64,000 nt of DNA. Source: Amyelois transitella. Its lineage: Eukaryota > Arthropoda > Insecta > Lepidoptera > Pyralidae. A program made the position numbers and the translations under genes. Location: the NCBI RefSeq assembly GCF_032362555.1, contig NC_083531.1, forward strand, positions 3,348,001-3,412,000. The letters run 5' to 3'. Below, one piece after another: positions 1,445 through 55,816 of the stretch. The notes beneath the pieces were generated by a model. The model had not been told where the DNA came from. It did not search any database and saw only the letters and a program-made list of their open reading frames with translations. Within the stretch, counting starts at the first letter, position 1. Every line of letters begins with the position of its first letter.

Positions 1445-4400
1445 TTCAAATCAGTTGATGATCTTTCTTCTCTGCGACTTTTTAAATCTTTACTAGATTG
1501 TTCTGTGTCATCTATTTGTCTTAATACATTCATTGTATCAATTGGATATTTTTCTTCTTTTATAAGTTGTTGGTGTTTTACTGTCTTTTTTCCAATGCCT
1601 TTTCCTTTATATTTTCTTGTTTCTTTGCCTTCTTGTGTAGAATATATTTCGTTTTCCGTAGTCAATCCTTCTGCCTTGTCGACTTTATTTTCGGGGTTAT
1701 AGAAAGCACGATTTGCAGACATAAATCTTGATGAAGATAACGTTGTTACTTTTTCGTTTTCTGTAGGTTCTCGTTTCTTGCCTGTTTTCTTTTCCCATGA
1801 GTCCTGAAAAAATGTTCATTAAAATTTGTTTTTAAATAAACGCTATAAGACATTTGTAATTTAAGGGATTTATTGTAGTATTTTACCTGTGTTTCCTTGT
1901 CTTTAAACCTAAATTGCGTTATCTCTTCAATATCAGAGACCAGATCAATTTTTACTTCTTGTTCAAAATTCTTCATAAAGTCTGTAACTTTATCATTGTC
2001 TTCATTTTCAAATTCCACATCTGAGTCCTGAAAAAAGTGTTCATTAAAGTTTGTTTTTAAGAAAAATGCTATGAGAAATTTGTAAATTTTGAATTTAAAG
2101 AGACTTATTTTAGTATTTTACCTGAGTTTCTCTATCTTTAAACCTTAAATGCGTTAGCTCTTCTATATCTGAAACTAGATCAACTTTCTCTACTTTTTTA
2201 AAATTCTTTATAAAGTCTGTAATTTTATCATCGCCTTCACTCTCAAATTCTACATCTCTCGGATCTAAATCATCATAATATCTTACACTGACGTCACTTT
2301 CCGTTGTAGTAGAACTATTTATTCTTTTGAATCTTTTTGCTGGTGTGTTCTGTATTTTTAAGGCGTTTCGTTTATTACGACATGGTACAGCTTTTGGCCC
2401 TGTTAGGTAGTTGGTGGGTAGAAGTTCGTGTTCTTTTGTGTGGTAACAGTCGCAACAGATGTTATTTTTTTTGCAATCAAAGCAGCTCAACAGTTTATAT
2501 TTAATTTTCGTATTATCGTCGATTACGATTTGATGAATCTTCATTGTACCTTTTATGGGAATAACATTTTTAGGTATCATTTTCATCATATTTTGTATGT
2601 TATTTTCATTTATATAAAACATTTTTACTCTGCTGTTAATTAATAAATATTCATATGCTTCTTTTGCGTTGATTATGTCATTGCCATGTGAAATATGATT
2701 ATCAAGTTGTCGTTTTAAAGCTCCACCAACCCCATCAGCTGGACCTTTGCCGTGTGAGGCTTCAAAGAAATTCCAAGTAGCATATTCATATTTATATTCT
2801 TTTATATTTTTTTGAAACAAGTAGAAATTATGTTTTTGGCGGTACTGCGTTGCTGGGCTATCAGAAAATATATGAATATTTTTTATGTTAAAGCCTTTGC
2901 ATAGTTTCATTATTGGATCCAAATGAGCCCAGATTGCTCCAGGACCATGCTCATTACTTGGTGATACGGAGCATATCGATCGGGGATTCGCATTTTTCCT
3001 GTAAAGAACGCAAGTGTGCAATGTGACTTGATTCCGGGATCCTCCAAAGTGGACAGCCTGAATTTCTTCAGATTGCTTGCATGAAAAGTTTTCTGAAAAA
3101 TCGCAAATCAATGCTGCTTCCTCTTCATCAAGGTTTTCAATACACTTTTTCCACGCCAAGTACTGATGCGAAACATTGAAGTAATGAGTTTTAAATTTTT
3201 GTATATCATCTTGAAATTCTTTAATTAATGTAGTCACTGTTCCTTTCACTATCTGTTTTAAATACTTCTTTGTCTGTTTTTCTTCTGATTTCTTTTTGCC
3301 AATTTTAGTATAGGTATACGTGCTCATTTTCCATTGGAGCCATTGCACGGGACTATCTTCACTTATCGTCAAATCAATAGCTAATTTCTTATCTTTGCAT
3401 TCAGAACACTCGGAGTACATGCACTTGAAAGAATTGCTGCAACTTACATTTTTCATAAGTTCATCAATGTCAGATGTTTGAAGTAAACCTAGCTTCTTCA
3501 AAGATATTGCCTTAAACAATAAATTGCAATGCTTTATGCAAGCACAAGTATTCCTATCTTGAAGTCTTGGTTTCACAACAAAGAATGGTCGGAACCGATA
3601 AAAAGTTTGCAAAGATGCTTTACCACCTTCTGTCCTGTATTTTCTATAGAGCTTGTATATTGGTTCAATTAAATATCTCTTTTGTACTTTTTCTTTATTT
3701 CTCGTTATGCACTCTTTTTTCCCTGCGCTAGGTCTACTTACATCTTCTCTTGCAAAGAAATTTTGGATTTCTTTTTTATATTTCTTTCTCATTTGGTTAC
3801 TTCCTTTTGTCGTCGTTCTGATTCTTCCTTTCAGGCCAAGAACATTAGAAATAGCTGTTTTTAATTTTTTTTTATTTGCAATTTCGTTTGTAGCTACCTT
3901 TTTTAGTATTGTCCTCTCTTTGGGATCTGCTTTATTAAACTCTGTCTTTAAAGAATCTGTAATTGTGTTTAGTAAAAGTAACTTCTTTTTCACCCTTTCT
4001 TTTTCTACCAGAGACACATTTGGTAAAACTTCTTTTATGAAACTATTTGATTTCGTTAATGGTGTGTCGTCACATTGGGGTGTTTTAGCAGTTGGTTCAA
4101 TGGAAATAACGTCATTATTAGTCACAGTTTGTTGATGTAGTAGTTTTTTCAGATTGACCATTCGCTTTCTCATCCGATTACAGGCTTGCTTTAAATTCTT
4201 ATTACGTCTTTTTAACTGATTATTTTCTTCAATTAGGTTTTTTAGTGTTTCCTTTAAGATTTTTGTATTAGAATAAGTGTTTTTTCTAACTTCTAATGTA
4301 TTTTTGTCATGTGTGGTAAGGTTAGCCTTCTTTTTTCTTTCAGCTCTTTTAGCATTGGCTTGTCTCCACTTTTCTCGTAACTCTTCTTTTTCTTTTTCTG

Positions 4401-7794: not shown

Positions 7795-10700
7795 ACGACC
7801 TCTCATATGACACTCAACTATGCCATATTTGCAACATACATGTTCCACTACAATACATAAATGAGCACAGAAACAGTATAACTCATACTAATATGAAGAA
7901 AATACAAGATTTAATATTACGGCGAGGTAAAAAGAGTCTTAATTGCAATGCCGTAACATCGAAATCAGATGCTAATTATTACTGCGACGATTGTTCAATA
8001 GTTGTTTCGAAAAGCAGAAAAGAAAAACACGAATCATCATATACTCATAAGATGTCTCTAAGAAACAAAGATTTGATCGAAGAGTTCCTGAAATTCTATT
8101 CGAAAGATTTGTACGATGTGAATGTTAAGAAAACATTACTATACCAAGAATATTACAATAAGTTTGTTAACAGAAAGAATCTGTCATACAAAATTGAAAT
8201 TGTCGACGATGATTTTCTATCAGTTATTATAAAGGGAAAGCATCTAAAGATAGACGCTGATAAATATCACGGTTTCATGAAAACTGACGTTGAACTAATT
8301 TGTGTTCTATGTGAGGTTCAATTTAGAGCGGTCATTGAAATAATCAAGACCCATGTAGAAGGAAAAAAGCATCGGAAAAAGATAGCTTGTGATATGCATG
8401 ACGAGCATTGTATTCGCGAGGTAAGCACAGAATTTGAAAGTATACCAAACATATCCAGGCTCTTACGATGAGGGAAAACGTCGCGAGGAAACCTGCACAT
8501 TCAGGTAACTGGATGTTTGACCATAGATCCAATTCGGGTTAGATTCACCTGCAAAGGTTGCGGAAGCCAGATGGGTGTCGCTTCGTGTAAAAACCTGCCT
8601 CACCCTGGATCCATGGTCAAAGGCATACCCCGGGCTCCTCTTTTAGTTTTTCTTCCCGCGAGAATTCCGGGAAAACCTCTTCCTTCATCCTCGTTCTTTG
8701 CAGGTAAACCTAACCCGTATTGGATCCATTGTTACACGCCCAGTTCCGTAAATGTGCAGGATTCCTCACGATCTTTTCCTCACCGTAAGACCATCGGTTA
8801 GTATTCAAACTAATGTACATAACTGTGAAAATAGTCATTGGTACATGGCAGAGGTGGGATTTGAACCTGTGCCTTTCTGCGCATCACGCATTTTAACTTA
8901 CCGATTCGACTACCGAAGCTCATTCCTCCCTTCTCCCCCGGAATTCCTCATACCTAAATGACACATAATGCAGTACATACATACATATGATGACGTCTTT
9001 ATCCCTTACGGGGTAGACAGAGCCAATAGTCTTGAAAAGACTGATAGGCCACGTTCAGCTGTTTGGTTTAATGATAGAATTGAGATTCAAATAGTGACGG
9101 GTTGCTAGCCCATCGCCTAAAAGAAGAATCCCAAGTTTATAAGCCTATCCCTTAGTCGCCTTTACGACATCCATGGGAACGAGATGGAGTGGCCCTATTC
9201 TTTTTTTTATTGGTGCCGGGAACCACACGGCACTGCATAATGCAGTAACACGACTATTTCCGAAACTACAGACCCGCTCATTCAGCCTTCTTTATATGCA
9301 GAAGAGTGCCGATCTTATTGAGTCTCAGTGCAATGGTTTCTTTATATTTTGTGTTCAATTAGACTGCCAAAGCAAAACCCTATACTGATTTACTTCTGGC
9401 AGGATGAAGCCTCTCGTCTGACCTCCCGACTGAACTTACGTAGGTCAAATGCACAAGTGAAAGAGATACTGAGGGAATTGATAAAAATGCAAATTTCTAG
9501 GTTCTAAGTGTCCATTTTGAAAATAAATTAATTTCGTGTCATATCTTTCCTAACAACCAATAATGGCATCTTATTCTAATATTATTTTTCTTTTTAGATA
9601 AACGACCTCATCGCTCACTGCGTGCTTTGCAACGAATTAATTCCACGAGCCAGAATCGCCGGCCACAAGGTTCTGATTTCACATTTAGTTAAACTTTATC
9701 GCGCACAAGGTAAAAAAGATATCGAAGATTTTAACAAAAACTATGTAATAACTGGAGATAATAAGTTTAGGAATTTAACCGATGAAGTAACTGATCATGT
9801 AGGTAATATAAGTGAAAGTAGTTCTCAAGAATATAAGGAAGAAGTAGGTAATAATGGGAACTGGGCAATGGTACAAAATGAAAATTTAACATTCGATAAT
9901 ACCTCTTACATCAATCAAACATATTGCAATGTATGTTCTGTATATATAGACACACATAATTTTAAAAGTCATACAATGGGTAATATTCATAAACAGTTAC
10001 AATCCAGTAAATGTAAAGTTGATGAGAATAATCTCGTAAAAATAAAGAATATTATTAACATGGATTTAGCTGTACATGGTGACGATGTAAAGTTTACAGC
10101 ATCAAATATATTGTCTGACGCTACAAATGTGGTTGAAGAGCGCAATGTAAAAGTAATTGATACAAATAAAATTCGTACTGATCTGGAAAACGAAATTACT
10201 AAACCAGTTTCAGAAAATAACGTTCAAAATTCTGATTTAGCGTCAGAATTAAAAGAAGCATCTACCTCTACTATGGTTAAAATAGATAAATCCACATCTG
10301 ATTCTTCTATAGAAAAAATTGATTTAAGAAACGTTAACGATAAAATATCAAAACCAAATAATTACACTGAACTTTCAGAAACGGAATCAATAGAAATTCC
10401 ATCAGATTTTATGGAAAATATAAAATATCTGCTCCTTGAAACAATCATTGAAAAAGAAATAATTTGCAAAGTTTGTAACCTTTTGACATCTAATACAGGC
10501 ACGAATGTATACAATCATATCAATGGGGAAAATCATACTTCAAGATACAACGAATTATTGAGAACAAATAAACTGACAAAAGCTCAAAATAAATTCTTTT
10601 GCCATTTATGTAAATTATTAGTTACCAGCAAAAACGAAATAGCACATGTATTTGGCAATAAACATAGAAATAAATTTCCCAATAATGGCAATAATTCGGC

Positions 10701-15822: not shown

Positions 15823-43401
<27,579 letters not shown>

Positions 43402-43687: not shown

Positions 43688-43717
43688 GCGATTAATCGAT
43701 TTGCTCAGTGATATATT

Positions 43718-46700
43718 ACATACATACATACATACATACAATCACGCCTCTTTCCCGGAGGGGTAGGCAGAGACTACCTCTTTCCACTTGCCACGATCTC
43801 TGCATACTTCTTTCGCTTCGTCCACATTCATAACTCTCTTCATACAAGCTCGGCGGTTTCGGGTACTTTTGACCTGACCCTTTACCAGGACGTCCTTAAT
43901 TTGATCAAGATACGTTCGTCTAGGTCTTCCCACTCCGACCTTTCCCTCCACACTCTCCTTGTATATCTGCTTAGTCAACCTGCTTTCATTCATCCTCTCC
44001 ACATGACCGAACCATCTTAACATACCCTTTTCTATTCCTGTAACTACATCTTCTTTCACATCACAACATTCCCTTATCACGCTGTTCCTTATCCTGTCAC
44101 TCAATTTCACACCCATCATACTCCTTAACGCTCTCATTTCCACTGCATTTATTCTGCTTTCATGCTTCTTTTGCCATACCCAACTTTCACTCCCATACAT
44201 TAATGTCGGGACCAACACGCCCCTGTGCACAGCCAGTCGAGCCTTTTTGGATAGTTTCTGACTGCTCATAAAGGCATGCAAAGCTCCATTCATATCTATC
44301 ATACTTGCCATCTGATGTAAACTTTGATCCTAGATATACAAACTCTTTCACTTGCTCCACTTTTTCTCCTCCAATCAAAATATTACATGCTGTCATTTCT
44401 TTCTCCATTTCAAAAACCAGTGTTTTAGTTTTACTTACGTTCACTTTCATTCCTTTCTCTTTTAAAGCTTCATGCATACAGTTTACCATCTCCTGTAACT
44501 CCTCCGCTGATGACGACAGTATAACCTGATCGTCGGCATAGAGCAGACATTTGACGAGTAACTCATTCATCCATAATCCACTTTTAGACTCTTTCAAATC
44601 TGTCAAACAGCTATCCATAAATAGGTTGAACAGCCACGGTGACGCAACACATCCTTGCCTAACGCCTTTCTCAATCTTAAACCACTCAGTGTGCGCTCCG
44701 TTTATCCTGACACAAGCACTCGAATCCTCATATAAGGATTTCAGTGCTCGTATTAAGAGACTGCTCACCCCATGCATAGAAAGTGCTGACCACAATTCAT
44801 TCCTCTCAACTCTGTCATAGGCCTTTTCCAGATCTACGAATGTGCAATAGACTTTTTGACTCTTGGCCAAAAACTTTTCGGCTATGCACCGCAAGGAAAA
44901 GACCTGATCAGTACATCCCATTCCCTTTCGAAATCCCGCTTGAGCATCCCATATTTTGTCATCAGTTTCATTCCTGACTCTATTAATCAATACCTTAGCA
45001 TACAATTTGCCGACGACGCTAAGCAGGCTTATACCACGATAATTTTTGCAGTCCAGCTGTGACCCTTTTCCTTTGTAAAGTGGCACGATAACAGCCTTAC
45101 ACCAATCTTTTGGTACTCGGCCGCTTCTCCAACACAAATTGAAAAGGCAGTACAACTGACTAGCTACTACGCCTTTTCCTGCTTTAAGCATCTCGACCGA
45201 CACTCTATCACACCCAGCAGCCTTTCCCGCTTTCATACTCTTAAGTGCTTCCACAATTTCGAACATTTCAATTTCGCCTTCCATCTCATTCTCTTTTTCT
45301 TCGCTATAGCAGAAATCTTTCTTATTTCCTTCCTTTTTTTCAAATAAACTTTCAAAATAGTCCTTCCATATCTTTAGTACACATTCTTCTCCTTTCACAA
45401 CGCTACCATCCTGGCATCTGATCCTAGTCAGCTCTCTGGTTATAGTATTTCCTCGGGCTGACCTTACGGATTTCCAGAATACTTTCAGATTTGACTGAAA
45501 GTCTTCTGATAGCCTTTTATCAAAATCCTCTTTATACTCTTCTTTCTTTCTAATCACAGCTTTCTTAACCAAATCTTTCATTTTCTTATATTCCTTACGT
45601 GCTTCATTCACATCTTCATCTATAACCTCTTGCATTCTTAAGTTAGCTTTTGCTGCTAACAAATCCAGCCATGCTTTCTTCTTTAATCGCACAAGTTCTT
45701 GCACATCTTTACTCATCCACGCATTTTTGTGATTTTTTCCTTTCCTTCTTCTACTTACACCACACACTTCAACAGCTACTTTCACAATTCTTTCTTTAAA
45801 TTCCTTCCATCCATCTTCAATATCGCTCATTTCCTCTAAATCTTCAAATTCATCCTTCAGTCTATTAATATACTTCTTACCTACATCCATATCTTGCAAA
45901 TTTTCTACTTTTACTCTTTCCAAAGCGCTGGTTTGCTCCCTTACCCTGTGCCGCCAGCGATTGAAGATACCCCTTATCCGGGATATCACCAGTAAATGGT
46001 CCGAGTCAATGCCAGCACCGCGATATGCACGGGTATCCAGCACTTTGTTCTTCAATCTTTCATCTACAATCACAAAGTCTATCATACTTTTTAAAATACC
46101 TTCCACTCTTGTGTAGGTGTGGATCTCTTTATGTTGAAACATTGAGTTCGACACAAAAAGATCCCACTCTAGACAAATTTCTAATACACTTCTTCCATTA
46201 TCATTCACCTTTTCGTCACCAAACGCACCAAGCACCTTTTCATATCCATCACGCTTTACACCCACCCATCCATTAAAATCACCTAACATAATAATCTTCT
46301 CATTTGGCTTGGTAACTTTCAATACTTCTCTTACACTATTCCAGAACTCCTCGTTTTCGCTTTTTGCTGATGTTGTACCCCTCGAACCCACATCCCAAGG
46401 TGCATAAACACCTAGAACGAAGATCCGAGTGATTCCAACTTTCAGCCTAATCCATAGAAGACGAGGGCTGACACACTCATACTCATTCACGCACTCAGCC
46501 ATTCGTGCAGAAAGAATTAGACCGACCCCTTGACAGCCTCGGCTGGTACTGGAAATTCCAGACCAATACGCCGTGTAAGGGCCGTGCTGCGTCGCGTCGC
46601 ATCCTTTCCGCTTCGTTTCATTCACGCACAACACATCCAAACGTCTTTCATCCATCATCTGGCATACTTCCTCAATCTTATCCTTCATTCCTCCTCTTAC

Positions 46701-47113
46701 ATTCATCGTCGCAAAGCGGCTTTCAGCAGACCGCATACCGCTCCCGCCGGGAACGAGACGTGATGGGGTGCGGACACCATCGCCGCCATCTAGGTGCTCT
46801 TTCAAAAAATTTGCATCCATGCGATTCCCACGAGACGCTAGGGAAAAATTTTGTCCGCCCCAGCAGAGCCCCGCATGCCAGGGTAAGGCTAGCCATTACC
46901 TGGGGGTCGCCCAACCCCATGGCGGAAGTGGCACGCTCGAGACTAGGCTCGCCCCTAGCCATGCATCCATCGGCGCGGCAGACCTTAGATTGGCAGGGAT
47001 TTACATTAAAGAGGAATCCCAAGTCTATCCCTTAGTCGGCTCTTACGACATCCGTGGGAAAGAGATGGAGTGGTCCTATTCTTTTGTAATGGTGCCGGGA
47101 ACCACACGGCTTA
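43718..47113 (-). mobile_element. RTE-like LINE, near full length (copy A)
   Basis: Flanked by perfect TGATATATT duplications at 43709-43717 and 47114-47122. Reading on the minus strand, it opens with a SINE-like 5' end (GCCGTGTGGTTCCCGGCACC), then a 5' leader of about 290 nt, the coding region (46820-43742) and a (TATG)n tail. The short microsatellite tail and the single ORF with endonuclease plus reverse transcriptase fit the RTE clade. Confidence 0.9.
43742..46820 (-). pseudogene. RTE-like endonuclease/reverse transcriptase ORF, one frame break
   Basis: The main frame (46820-44187) encodes 877 residues: an N-terminal exonuclease-endonuclease-phosphatase domain (MNVRGGMKD at the start, NETK, the GDFNGWVG motif and SDHLLV near its end), then a reverse transcriptase with RQGC and YADD motifs (LLYADDQVIL). 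The rest (WQKKHESRINAVEMRALRSM through CRDRGKW) continues in another frame from 44311 to 43742. A small deletion after KFTSDGKYD (near 44310) causes the break. Such proteins nick target DNA and copy the element RNA into it. This copy is probably inactive. Confidence 0.9.
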
Positions 47114-47122
47114 TGATATATT

Positions 47123-53241: not shown

Positions 53242-55790
53242 CAAAAAGCGAAAACGAGGAGTTCTGGAATAGTGTAAGAGAAGTATTGAAAGTTACCAAG
53301 CCAAATGAGAAGATTATTATGTTAGGTGATTTTAATGGATGGGTGGGTGTAAAGCGTGATGGATATGAAAAGGTGCTTGGTGCGTTTGGTGACGAAAAGG
53401 TGAATGATAATGGAAGAAGTGTATTAGAAATTTGTCTAGAGTGGGATCTTTTTGTGTCGAACTCAATGTTTCAACATAAAGAGATCCACACCTATACAAG
53501 AGTGGAAGGTATTTTAAAAAGTATGATAGACTTTGTGATTGTAGATGAAAGATTGAAGAACAAAGTGCTGGATACCCGTGCATATCGCGGTGCTGGCATT
53601 GACTCGGACCATTTACTGGTGATATCCCGGATAAGGGGTATCTTCAATCGCTGGCGGCACAGGGTAAGGGAGCAAACCAGCGCTTTGGAAAGAGTGAAAG
53701 TAGAAAATTTGCAAGATATGGATGTAGGTAAGAAGTATATTAATAGATTGAAGGATGAAATTGAAGATTTAGATGAGAGGAGCAATATTGAAGATGGATG
53801 GAAGGGATTTAAAGAAAGAATTGTGAAAGTAGCTGTTGAAGTGTGTGGTGTAAGTAGAAGAAGAAAAGGGAAAAATCACAAAAATGCGTGGATGAGTAAA
53901 GATGTGCAAGAACTTGTGCGATTAAAGAAGAAAGCATGGCTGGATTTGTTAGCAGCAAAAGCTAACTTAAGAATGCAAGAGGTTATAGATGAGGATGTGA
54001 ATGAAGCACGTAAGGAATATAAAAAAATGAAAGATTTGGTTAAGAAAGCTGTGATTAGAAAGAAAGAAGAGTATAAAGAGGATTTTGATAAAAGGCTATC
54101 AGAAGACTTTCAGTCAAATCTGAAAGTATTCTGGAAATCCGTAAGGTCAGCCCGAGGAAAAACTATAACCAGAGAGCTGACTAGGATCAGATGCCAGGAT
54201 GGTAGCGTTGTGAAAGGAGAAGAATGTGTGCTAAAGATATGGAAGGACTATTTTGAGAGTTTATTTGAAAAAAAGGAAGAAAATAAGAAAGAGTTCTGCT
54301 ATAGCGAAGAAAAAGAGAATGAGGTGGAAGGCGAAATTGAAATGTTTGAAATTGTGGAAGCACTTAAGAGTATGAAAGCGGGTAAGGCTGCCGGGTATGA
54401 TAGAGTGTCGGTCGAGATGCTTAAAGCAGGAAAAGGCGTCGTAGCTAGACAGTTGTACTGCCTTTTCAATTTGTGTTGGAGAAGCGGCCGAGTACCAAAA
54501 GATTGGTGTAAGGCTGTTATTGTGCCACTTTACAAAGGAAAAGGGTCACAACTGGACTGCAAAAATTATCGTGGTATAAACCTGCTCAGCGTCGTCGGCA
54601 AATTGTATGCTAAGGTATTGATTAATAGAGTCAGGAATGAAACTGATGACAAAATATGGGATGCTCAAGCGGGATTTCGAAAGGGAATGGGATGTGCTGA
54701 TCAGGTCTTTTCTTTGCGGTGCATAGCCGAAAAGTTTTTGGCCAAGAGTCAAAAAGTCTATTGCACTTTCGTGGATTTGGAAAAGGCCTATGACAGAGTT
54801 GAGAGGAATGAATTGTGGTCAGCACTTTCTATGCATGGGGTGAGCAGTCTCTTGATACGAGCACTGAAATCCTTATATGAGGATTCGAGTGCTTGTGTCA
54901 GGATAAACGGAGCGCACACTGAGTGGTTTAAGATTGAGAAAGGTGTTAGGCAGGGATGTGTTGCGTCACCGTGGCTGTTCAACCTATTTATGGATAGTTG
55001 TTTGACAGATTTGAAAGAGTCTGAAAGTGGATTAAGGATGAATGAATTACTCGTCAAATGTCTGCTCTATGCCGACGATCAGGTTATACTGGCGTCATCA
55101 GCGGAGGAGTTACAGGAGATGGTAAACTGTATGCATGAAGCTTTAAAAGAGAAAGGAATGAAAGTGAACGTAAGTAAAACTAAAACACTGGTTTTTGAAA
55201 TGGAGAAAGAAATGACAGCATGTAATATTTTGATTGGAGGAGAAAAAGCTTTGCATGCCTTTATGAGCAGTCAGAAACTATCCAAAAAGGCTCGACTGGC
55301 TGTGCACAGGGGCGTGTTGGTCCCGACATTAATGTATGGGAGTGAAAGTTGGGTATGGCAAAAGAAGCACGAAAGCAGAATAAATGCAGTGGAAATGAGA
55401 GCGTTAAGGAGTATGTTGGGTGTGAAATTGAGTGACCGGATAAGGAACAGCGTGATAAGGGAGTGTTGTGATGTGAAAGAAGATGTAGTTACAGGAATAG
55501 AAAAGGGTATGTTGAGATGGTTCGGTCATGTGGAGAGGATGAATGAAAACAGGTTGACTAAGCAGATATACAAGGAGAGTGTGGAGGGAAAGGTCGGGGT
55601 GGGAAGACCTAGACGAACATATCTTGATCAAATTAAGGATGTCCTGGTGAAGGGTCAGGTCAAAAGTGCCCGAAGCCGCCGAGCTTGCATGAGGAGAGTT
55701 ATGAATGTGGATGAAGCAAAGGAAGTATGCAGGGATCGTGGCAAGTGGAAAGAGGTAGTCTCTGCCTACCCCTCCGGGAAAGAGGCGTGA
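53242..55790 (+). pseudogene. RTE-like endonuclease/reverse transcriptase ORF, N-terminus missing
   Basis: This single open frame of about 850 codons lacks roughly the first 150 residues of the endonuclease domain. It keeps GDFNGWVG, RQGC and YADD. Relative to copy A, it lacks about 36 residues between IGGEK and ALHAFMSS, joined in frame. With half the endonuclease gone it should not self-mobilise. The frame reaches the element's natural stop. Confidence 0.92.
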
Positions 55791-55816
55791 GTTTATGTAT
55801 GTATGTATGTATGTAT
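53242..55816 (+). mobile_element. RTE-like LINE, 5'-truncated (copy B)
   Basis: Perfect 13-bp target duplications GTATTGATAAAAT lie at 53229-53241 and 55817-55829. The element begins within the endonuclease domain (SKSENEEFWN) and ends with the GCGTGAGTTTATG tail and (TATG)n. Very high similarity to copy A suggests recent insertion. Confidence 0.93.

Follow-up and report, generated by a model that had tools for sequence, protein, structure and literature searches.

A SINE-like head at the 5′ end of an RTE-like LINE family in Amyelois transitella

The 5′ end of a recently active, RTE-like LINE family in the genome of the pyralid moth Amyelois transitella is a 103-nt segment homologous to the head of an abundant SINE, and the homology between the two elements resumes in their 3′ tails. 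The shared head is a constant part of the LINE family. Comparison of the sequences points to a probable order of events, to which we assign a chance of about three in four: the two elements shared an old tail, the LINE then captured a SINE head, and the chimera was subsequently amplified. We infer the direction of capture from age evidence and from the unequal similarity of the two ends, and the route is a proposed one. The original prediction for this locus had posed two directions, namely, origin of the SINE from the LINE 5′ leader or capture of a SINE head by the LINE; both indeed needed weighing, and the evidence favours the latter over the former.

The window is the whole 64,000-nt stretch analysed here (positions 3348001-3412000 of contig NC_083531.1), and the genome searched comprises 327 Mb in 33 contigs. 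The term SINE is used in a loose sense, for a short, repeated element with a LINE-like 3′ tail and a simple repeat.

Structure and coding content of the LINE

The LINE-related features of the window are as follows.

43718..47113, minus strand: LINE copy A, RTE-like, full length, with a TATG-repeat end (direct reading, sequence matches, domain search)
43709..43717, no strand: target-site duplication TGATATATT, LINE 3′ side (direct reading)
47114..47122, no strand: target-site duplication TGATATATT, LINE 5′ side (direct reading)
47111..47113, minus strand: TAA (element strand), 3 nt between the 5′ duplication and the head (direct reading)
47008..47110, minus strand: probable SINE-derived head, 103 nt, ending in the SINE's first TTTT run (alignment)
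46821..47007, minus strand: remaining LINE leader, in which homology to the SINE body was not found (alignment against shuffles)
45987..46712, minus strand: endonuclease region, Exo_endo_phos_2, with Exo_endo_phos below its cut-off (domain search)
44322..45062, minus strand: reverse transcriptase domain RVT_1 (domain search)
43722..43772, minus strand: LINE 3′ end homologous to the SINE tail (alignment)
53242..55815, plus strand: LINE copy B, similar to copy A from LINE position 757 onward only

Direct reading confirmed that the TGATATATT duplications flanking copy A are perfect. A single open frame encompasses RVT_1 (E 1.4e-41) and Exo_endo_phos_2 (E 1.9e-6, which narrowly clears its cut-off), that is, an AP-type endonuclease and a reverse transcriptase in one ORF, as in RTE-clade LINEs; the rest of the coding stretch is a second, overlapping frame. 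The last open frame ends at LINE position 3378, about 5 nt before the TATG repeat, and this very short 3′ UTR, together with the simple-repeat end and the target duplications, agrees with the features given for the RTE clade (PMC2887409). By its domain content, 3′ end and duplications, copy A can be classified as an RTE-like LINE. Copy B, with similarity to copy A starting only at position 757, is uninformative on the head.

Homology between the LINE and the SINE

The SINE is about 260 nt long, and its tail is identical to that of the LINE at 54 of 63 positions, in line with the loose definition given above. The claim that the 5′ part of the LINE matches the head of this SINE holds for 103 nt (47110-47008), with 5 mismatches in 103 aligned columns against the majority consensus of the window SINEs, in addition to gaps of 2 and 8 nt; the 8-nt gap corresponds to the dots in the motif GGGATAG..CTTGGGATTC of the original prediction. 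LINE positions 1-117 match 29 other places in the window at 75-91% identity (best E 7.3e-32), far beyond chance. The 5′ ends of the two elements agree to within 2 nt: LINE copies start at GCCGTGTGG in unrelated flanks, and the SINE starts at GTGCCGTGTGG, 2 nt further. On the other side, the homology ends at CCTCTTT, within the first T4 run of the SINE (2 of 16 copies of the TCC subfamily, defined below, have an earlier run).

The SINE body, that is, the next ~100 nt, has no detectable counterpart in the LINE, scoring 21 against a mean of 19.9 and a maximum of 27 for 100 shuffles. The comparison of the SINE middle part with the LINE leader that had been proposed as a check gave no homology, with 235 of 500 shuffles scoring as high against LINE 109-420, and derivation of the SINE body from the LINE leader was rejected on this alignment. 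The shared tail might form a hairpin, with the stem GCCT/AGGC in the LINE (43722-43772) and GTCT/AGAC in the SINE; such a two-sided stem change is what one would expect if the reverse transcriptase recognises this structure.

The head is a constant part of the LINE family

An exact piece of the LINE leader (LINE 121-146) occurs at 442 places in the genome, and an exact piece of the head (LINE 13-48) at 356. The first 100 listed of the 442 leader places (contigs C1-C7) were paired with the head list, and in 80 of these the exact head piece stands upstream at a constant distance of 108 nt. The remaining 20 were fetched: 15 start at LINE 13-16 with point changes, and 5 are truncated inside the head, at LINE 35, 78, 89, 95 and 105. 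The search for headless full-length copies, proposed as a refuting test, yielded no different leader among these first 100 places, with the head present in 95 and truncated in 5. A head-free query, the sample of which overlaps the leader-place sample in some copies, gave a compatible picture: 23 of 30 fetched copies begin at LINE 10-16, and 7 are truncated, at 35, 95, 95, 127, 127, 127 and 130. Four places with the exact head piece and without the exact leader piece in the paired span are LINE copies too. Because these queries select near-identical copies, the constancy of the head holds for the young family; the diverged copies L079 and L082 (96-97% over LINE 13-500) are also headed, although, having been found by their head, they provide no evidence that old copies carry it.

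The claim of the original prediction that LINE and SINE-like part were copied together is also borne out. The eight copies compared first, copy A among them, have an identical head start in eight different flanks, which answers the suspicion that a SINE was already present at the locus. Flanking repeats of 8-12 nt enclose head and LINE together in 5 of the 20 copies fetched with both sides (L013, L018, L021, L027 and L028); in the other 15, the flanking repeats are shorter or absent, and in three of these (L017, L020 and L026) no match with the LINE 3′ end was made. SINEs are dense in this region, so copy A could in principle have simply landed beside a pre-existing SINE head, but a head with an identical junction in 95 of the first 100 listed leader places, in unrelated flanks and inside flanking repeats, leaves this explanation with a negligible probability. 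The trinucleotides that precede the head in 67 distinct copies are most commonly TAA (11), AAA (7), TAT (6) and TTT (5).

Some 5′ truncations recur in different flanks, at LINE 127 (L037, L041, L054), 130 (L052) and 95 (L031, L048). The truncation points at 127-130 lie just inside the head/leader junction. Recurrent points of this kind, the one at 95 included, might reflect a reverse-transcriptase stop or a second RNA start. Separately, 7 of 40 listed places for the head query are on contig C32, which makes up ~4% of the genome, with the caveat that ties may be listed by contig; C32 is possibly a repeat-rich sex chromosome.

Direction of the transfer

The SINE copies vary at three sites of the head, CAAT/CATT, CCATGG/CCACGG and TTCT/TTCC. 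All three sites have the T, C and C states in 68 of 71 LINE head rows, and the other 3 rows have one site unread. Window SINEs of both kinds are exemplified by the following copies, all assigned by sequence comparison.

28281..28544, minus strand: SINE copy with the CATT and TTCC states common to the LINE head
29274..29558, minus strand: second SINE copy with CATT and TTCC
8974..9233, minus strand: typical SINE copy, showing CAAT, CCATGG and TTCT instead

A SINE with the T, C and C states (L093) was used as a query, for which 40 places were scored out of 2766 candidates and 38 were fetched; many of these 38 loci carry all three LINE-like states. Against the consensus of this TCC subfamily, the LINE head is identical at 101 of 103 positions, with gaps of 2 and 8 nt.

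In a tree built from the heads of 79 SINEs and 7 LINEs, those of the LINEs make up a single clade (97/97). This clade groups with 25 SINEs (98/82), of which 16 are typed TCC, and is nested in a wider group with 33 SINEs (98/86), leaving 46 SINEs outside. This 86-row tree is unrooted, is built from 126 columns with bootstrap values that had not settled, and includes 7 of the 71 LINE rows and, of the SINE rows, only those that span the head. Within the inner 32-row group, the LINE clade belongs to a polytomous fan and lies among or beside the TCC SINEs. A 35-row tree places the LINE, with weaker support (81/87), beside two CATT/CCTC SINEs, and a 53-row tree does not place it. The tree loci are partly selected, 38 because they resemble L093 and 16 because the 8 nt are missing, and the TCC subfamily looks young partly because of this selection.

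Polarity was sought in unselected SINE copies. The CCTC state is present in 4 of 15 such copies with body divergence below 0.08 and in 0 of 18 above (one-sided Fisher 0.033); the test drew on 48 unselected copies, 33 with a readable third state and 15 dropped as unreadable, and the 0.08 cut was set after seeing the data. The two ends of the LINE also differ in their similarity to the SINE: against the TCC consensus, the head has 2 mismatches in 103 positions and the tail 9 in 63 (Fisher 0.003), and against the ATT consensus, the head has 6 in 103 (97/103 identical) and the tail 9 in 51 (42/51; Fisher 0.039). Taken together, the CCTC age counts, which are modest age evidence, and the unequal ends would put the root among the CAAT/TTCT SINEs.

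The principal rival explanation derives the SINE from the LINE by internal deletion; the SINE would be a bipartite RTE derivative whose middle body came from another source, and the head would be the ancestral LINE leader. Internal-deletion derivatives are reported as common for RTE elements (PMC7245038), the unrooted 86-row tree can be read from the LINE end as well as from the SINE end, and a head that shows neither a tRNA, 5S or 7SL match in the three stretches compared nor A and B boxes above shuffles is easier to reconcile with a LINE leader than with derivation from a tRNA. On the other hand, a single deletion would have made both ends equally old, whereas head and tail are unequal in similarity; moreover, the more diverged unselected SINE copies have the non-LINE state (CCTC in 0 of 18), and no counterpart of the SINE body was found in the LINE. 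We consider this origin unlikely, with the qualification that a difference in apparent age could also arise if the head were under stronger constraint than the tail. A third donor, whether another repeat or a host gene, from which LINE and SINE would each have received the head, is less probable still: the three states mark the LINE heads and one SINE subfamily, and the shared piece starts and stops at SINE landmarks.

At the site of the 8-nt difference in the head, 29 of 31 readable unselected SINE copies have 10-12 nt and the other two have 5 and 9, so that none has the 3 nt of the LINE; with up to 3 mismatches allowed, there are 157 short-form SINE-like places, and the majority of the listed ones show break types other than that of the LINE. 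Conversely, a search for a LINE leader that keeps the 8 nt of the SINE, with one 38-letter pattern and up to 3 mismatches, gave 0 matches. The LINE head thus derives from one copy that lost the 8 nt, before or after the capture.

A scenario for head capture

Under the capture scenario, the LINE and the SINE would have come to share their 3′ tail long ago, in the usual SINE-LINE relation. Later, one LINE copy would have gained the 5′ 103 nt of a TCC-subfamily SINE as its new 5′ end, and this chimera would be the source of the present, recently active family with its 356 exact-head places. Capture requires a junction at the SINE's TTTTA, and two routes would fit. Along the first, a reverse transcriptase that had copied the LINE RNA would jump end-to-end onto a SINE RNA ending at the first U-run; comparable template jumps, which joined tRNA and U12 sequences to R2 5′ ends, are reported (PMC3414825), and so are Alu/LINE-1 chimeras (PMC13174262). 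Along the second, the LINE would insert into a SINE at TTTTA, and transcription would later begin at the SINE start (5′ transduction); at RTE-LINE insertion sites, a signature of a T-stretch plus TA is reported (PMC13295347). Neither a headless LINE of the copy A lineage nor a LINE-in-SINE source locus was seen.

The end-to-end jump has a possible present-day counterpart. Of 67 distinct headed copies, 5 carry a further, partial head no more than 10 nt upstream of the regular one, roughly 13-18 nt long overall: in L009, L011 and L022 it consists of the first 18 nt of the head, and in L044 and L077 the pieces are imperfect. L011 has one more short piece, and the one in L022 falls within the duplication as judged by eye; L008 and L080, with inverted pieces, were left out of the count. 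These extra pieces suggest that template jumping at the LINE 5′ end is still happening. In L080 (G000:C5:12528200-12528800), two inverted LINE heads have their 5′ ends ~30 nt apart, perhaps as a result of 5′ inversion.

The head may have been kept because it sets the RNA 5′ end, by start site or by processing, in both elements. In its fullest form, the proposal that a SINE donates a 5′ module, with an end-to-end jump onto a U-run-terminated SINE RNA, a head that defines the start in the new family and the extra pieces in 5 of 67 copies as the same reaction still going on, is tentative, and we would not put it at even odds.

Several candidate functions of the head were tried. A Pol III promoter as the reason for capture is not favoured: 298 of 300 SINE shuffles and 242 of 300 shuffles of the LINE head attain the best A+B box consensus score of the original sequence, by a crude scoring that degenerate boxes may escape, and two SINE copies and the LINE head have no match to tRNA, 5S or 7SL to E 10. 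The idea of a Pol III-terminated acceptor RNA is weakened because the SINE lacks recognisable Pol III boxes, and full-length Pol III transcription of the LINE is unlikely because the sense strand of copy A contains 12 runs of at least 4 T. The GACTAAGGGAT stretch resembles the HDV J4/2 region; an HDV-like ribozyme there was set aside as well, with Rfam empty at this place and a 7-bp P1 not found on paper. Rfam gave no HDV ribozyme match in the window at the gathering score and none to E 10 in the head, a search that divergent ribozymes can escape; matches to HCV_SL669 (E 1.8, outside the head) and Gl_U2 (E 2.4) were dismissed as chance. The predicted fold of the head is not more stable than those of shuffles (z -0.48, 0.20 and -0.31).

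Relation to known LINE/SINE systems

The original prediction regarded homology at both ends as a departure from standard LINE/SINE pairs, which is too strong: two-ended homology is known for RTE elements (PMC7245038 and PMC8010984, both citing Kojima 2018), for R2 (PMC3414825) and for trypanosomatid L1Tc/ingi, including L1Tc/NARTc (PMC4035085, PMC8190864). Each of these systems resembles the present one in part. In the bipartite non-autonomous RTE derivatives and the SINEs built on them, as described in these sources, an RTE-type LINE and a SINE share 5′ and 3′ sequence, as here, but the sequence passes from LINE to SINE, whereas in our case SINE sequence apparently became the outermost 5′ end of the LINE, and the ends are unequal in similarity. 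The R2 SIDEs likewise have 5′ and 3′ modules in common with the long element; they are described as deletion products of R2 with its ribozyme (PMC3414825), whereas here no ribozyme match was obtained and the direction is probably the reverse. L1Tc/ingi and the short elements also have a 5′ terminus in common, Pr77, which reportedly drives transcription and contains an HDV-like ribozyme (PMC4035085, PMC8190864); for the head described here, roles of this kind are conjectural. Alu/LINE-1 chimeras, reported to join SINE to LINE mostly in the sense orientation by template switch or RNA ligation, are similar in composition; they are, however, separate insertions, typically of a full-length Alu and a truncated L1 (PMC13174262), in contrast to a 103-nt head fixed on a family of hundreds.

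Among lepidopteran elements, SfSE1 and PxSE5 with PxLINE1 (PMC8010984) and HaSE1 with HaRTE1 (PMC3272025) likewise pair a SINE a few hundred bp in size with a LINE, RTE-like or other, that has a similar simple-repeat tail. SfSE1 and PxSE5, which we compare with our SINE by their description, end in ATGT repeats, and the 5′ regions of SfSE1, PxSE5 and PxLINE1 are described as widely divergent (PMC8010984), unlike the shared head here. The heads of these lepidopteran SINEs are called tRNA- or 5S-derived by the respective authors (PMC8010984, PMC3272025). Beyond the moth genome, a peptide pattern matched 5 stretches in viral contigs and 6 in genome contigs, none confirmed as relatives, and two SINE patterns had 0 matches in viral contigs. 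Two-ended sharing is already known, and a multi-copy LINE family with a SINE-derived 5′ terminus was not found described in the literature searched, a weak negative given that this consisted mainly of non-subscription papers.

LINE 5′ ends change in evolution, and the source of new ones is seldom known. If a SINE supplied the 5′ end of this LINE, the relation between parasite and host runs both ways. The family is young, with hundreds of near-identical copies, which makes a promoter or RNA-processing role of the head directly testable. For annotation, counts of the SINE by its head will take in LINE copies.

Other features of the window

A tRNA-His gene (GTG) is predicted at 23350-23421 on the plus strand; a few hundred bases further on stands a 131-bp tandem array (23804-24712), which has a continuation. 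At 34436-34990, a 111-bp unit is repeated five times with 98% matches and contains an AACT run.
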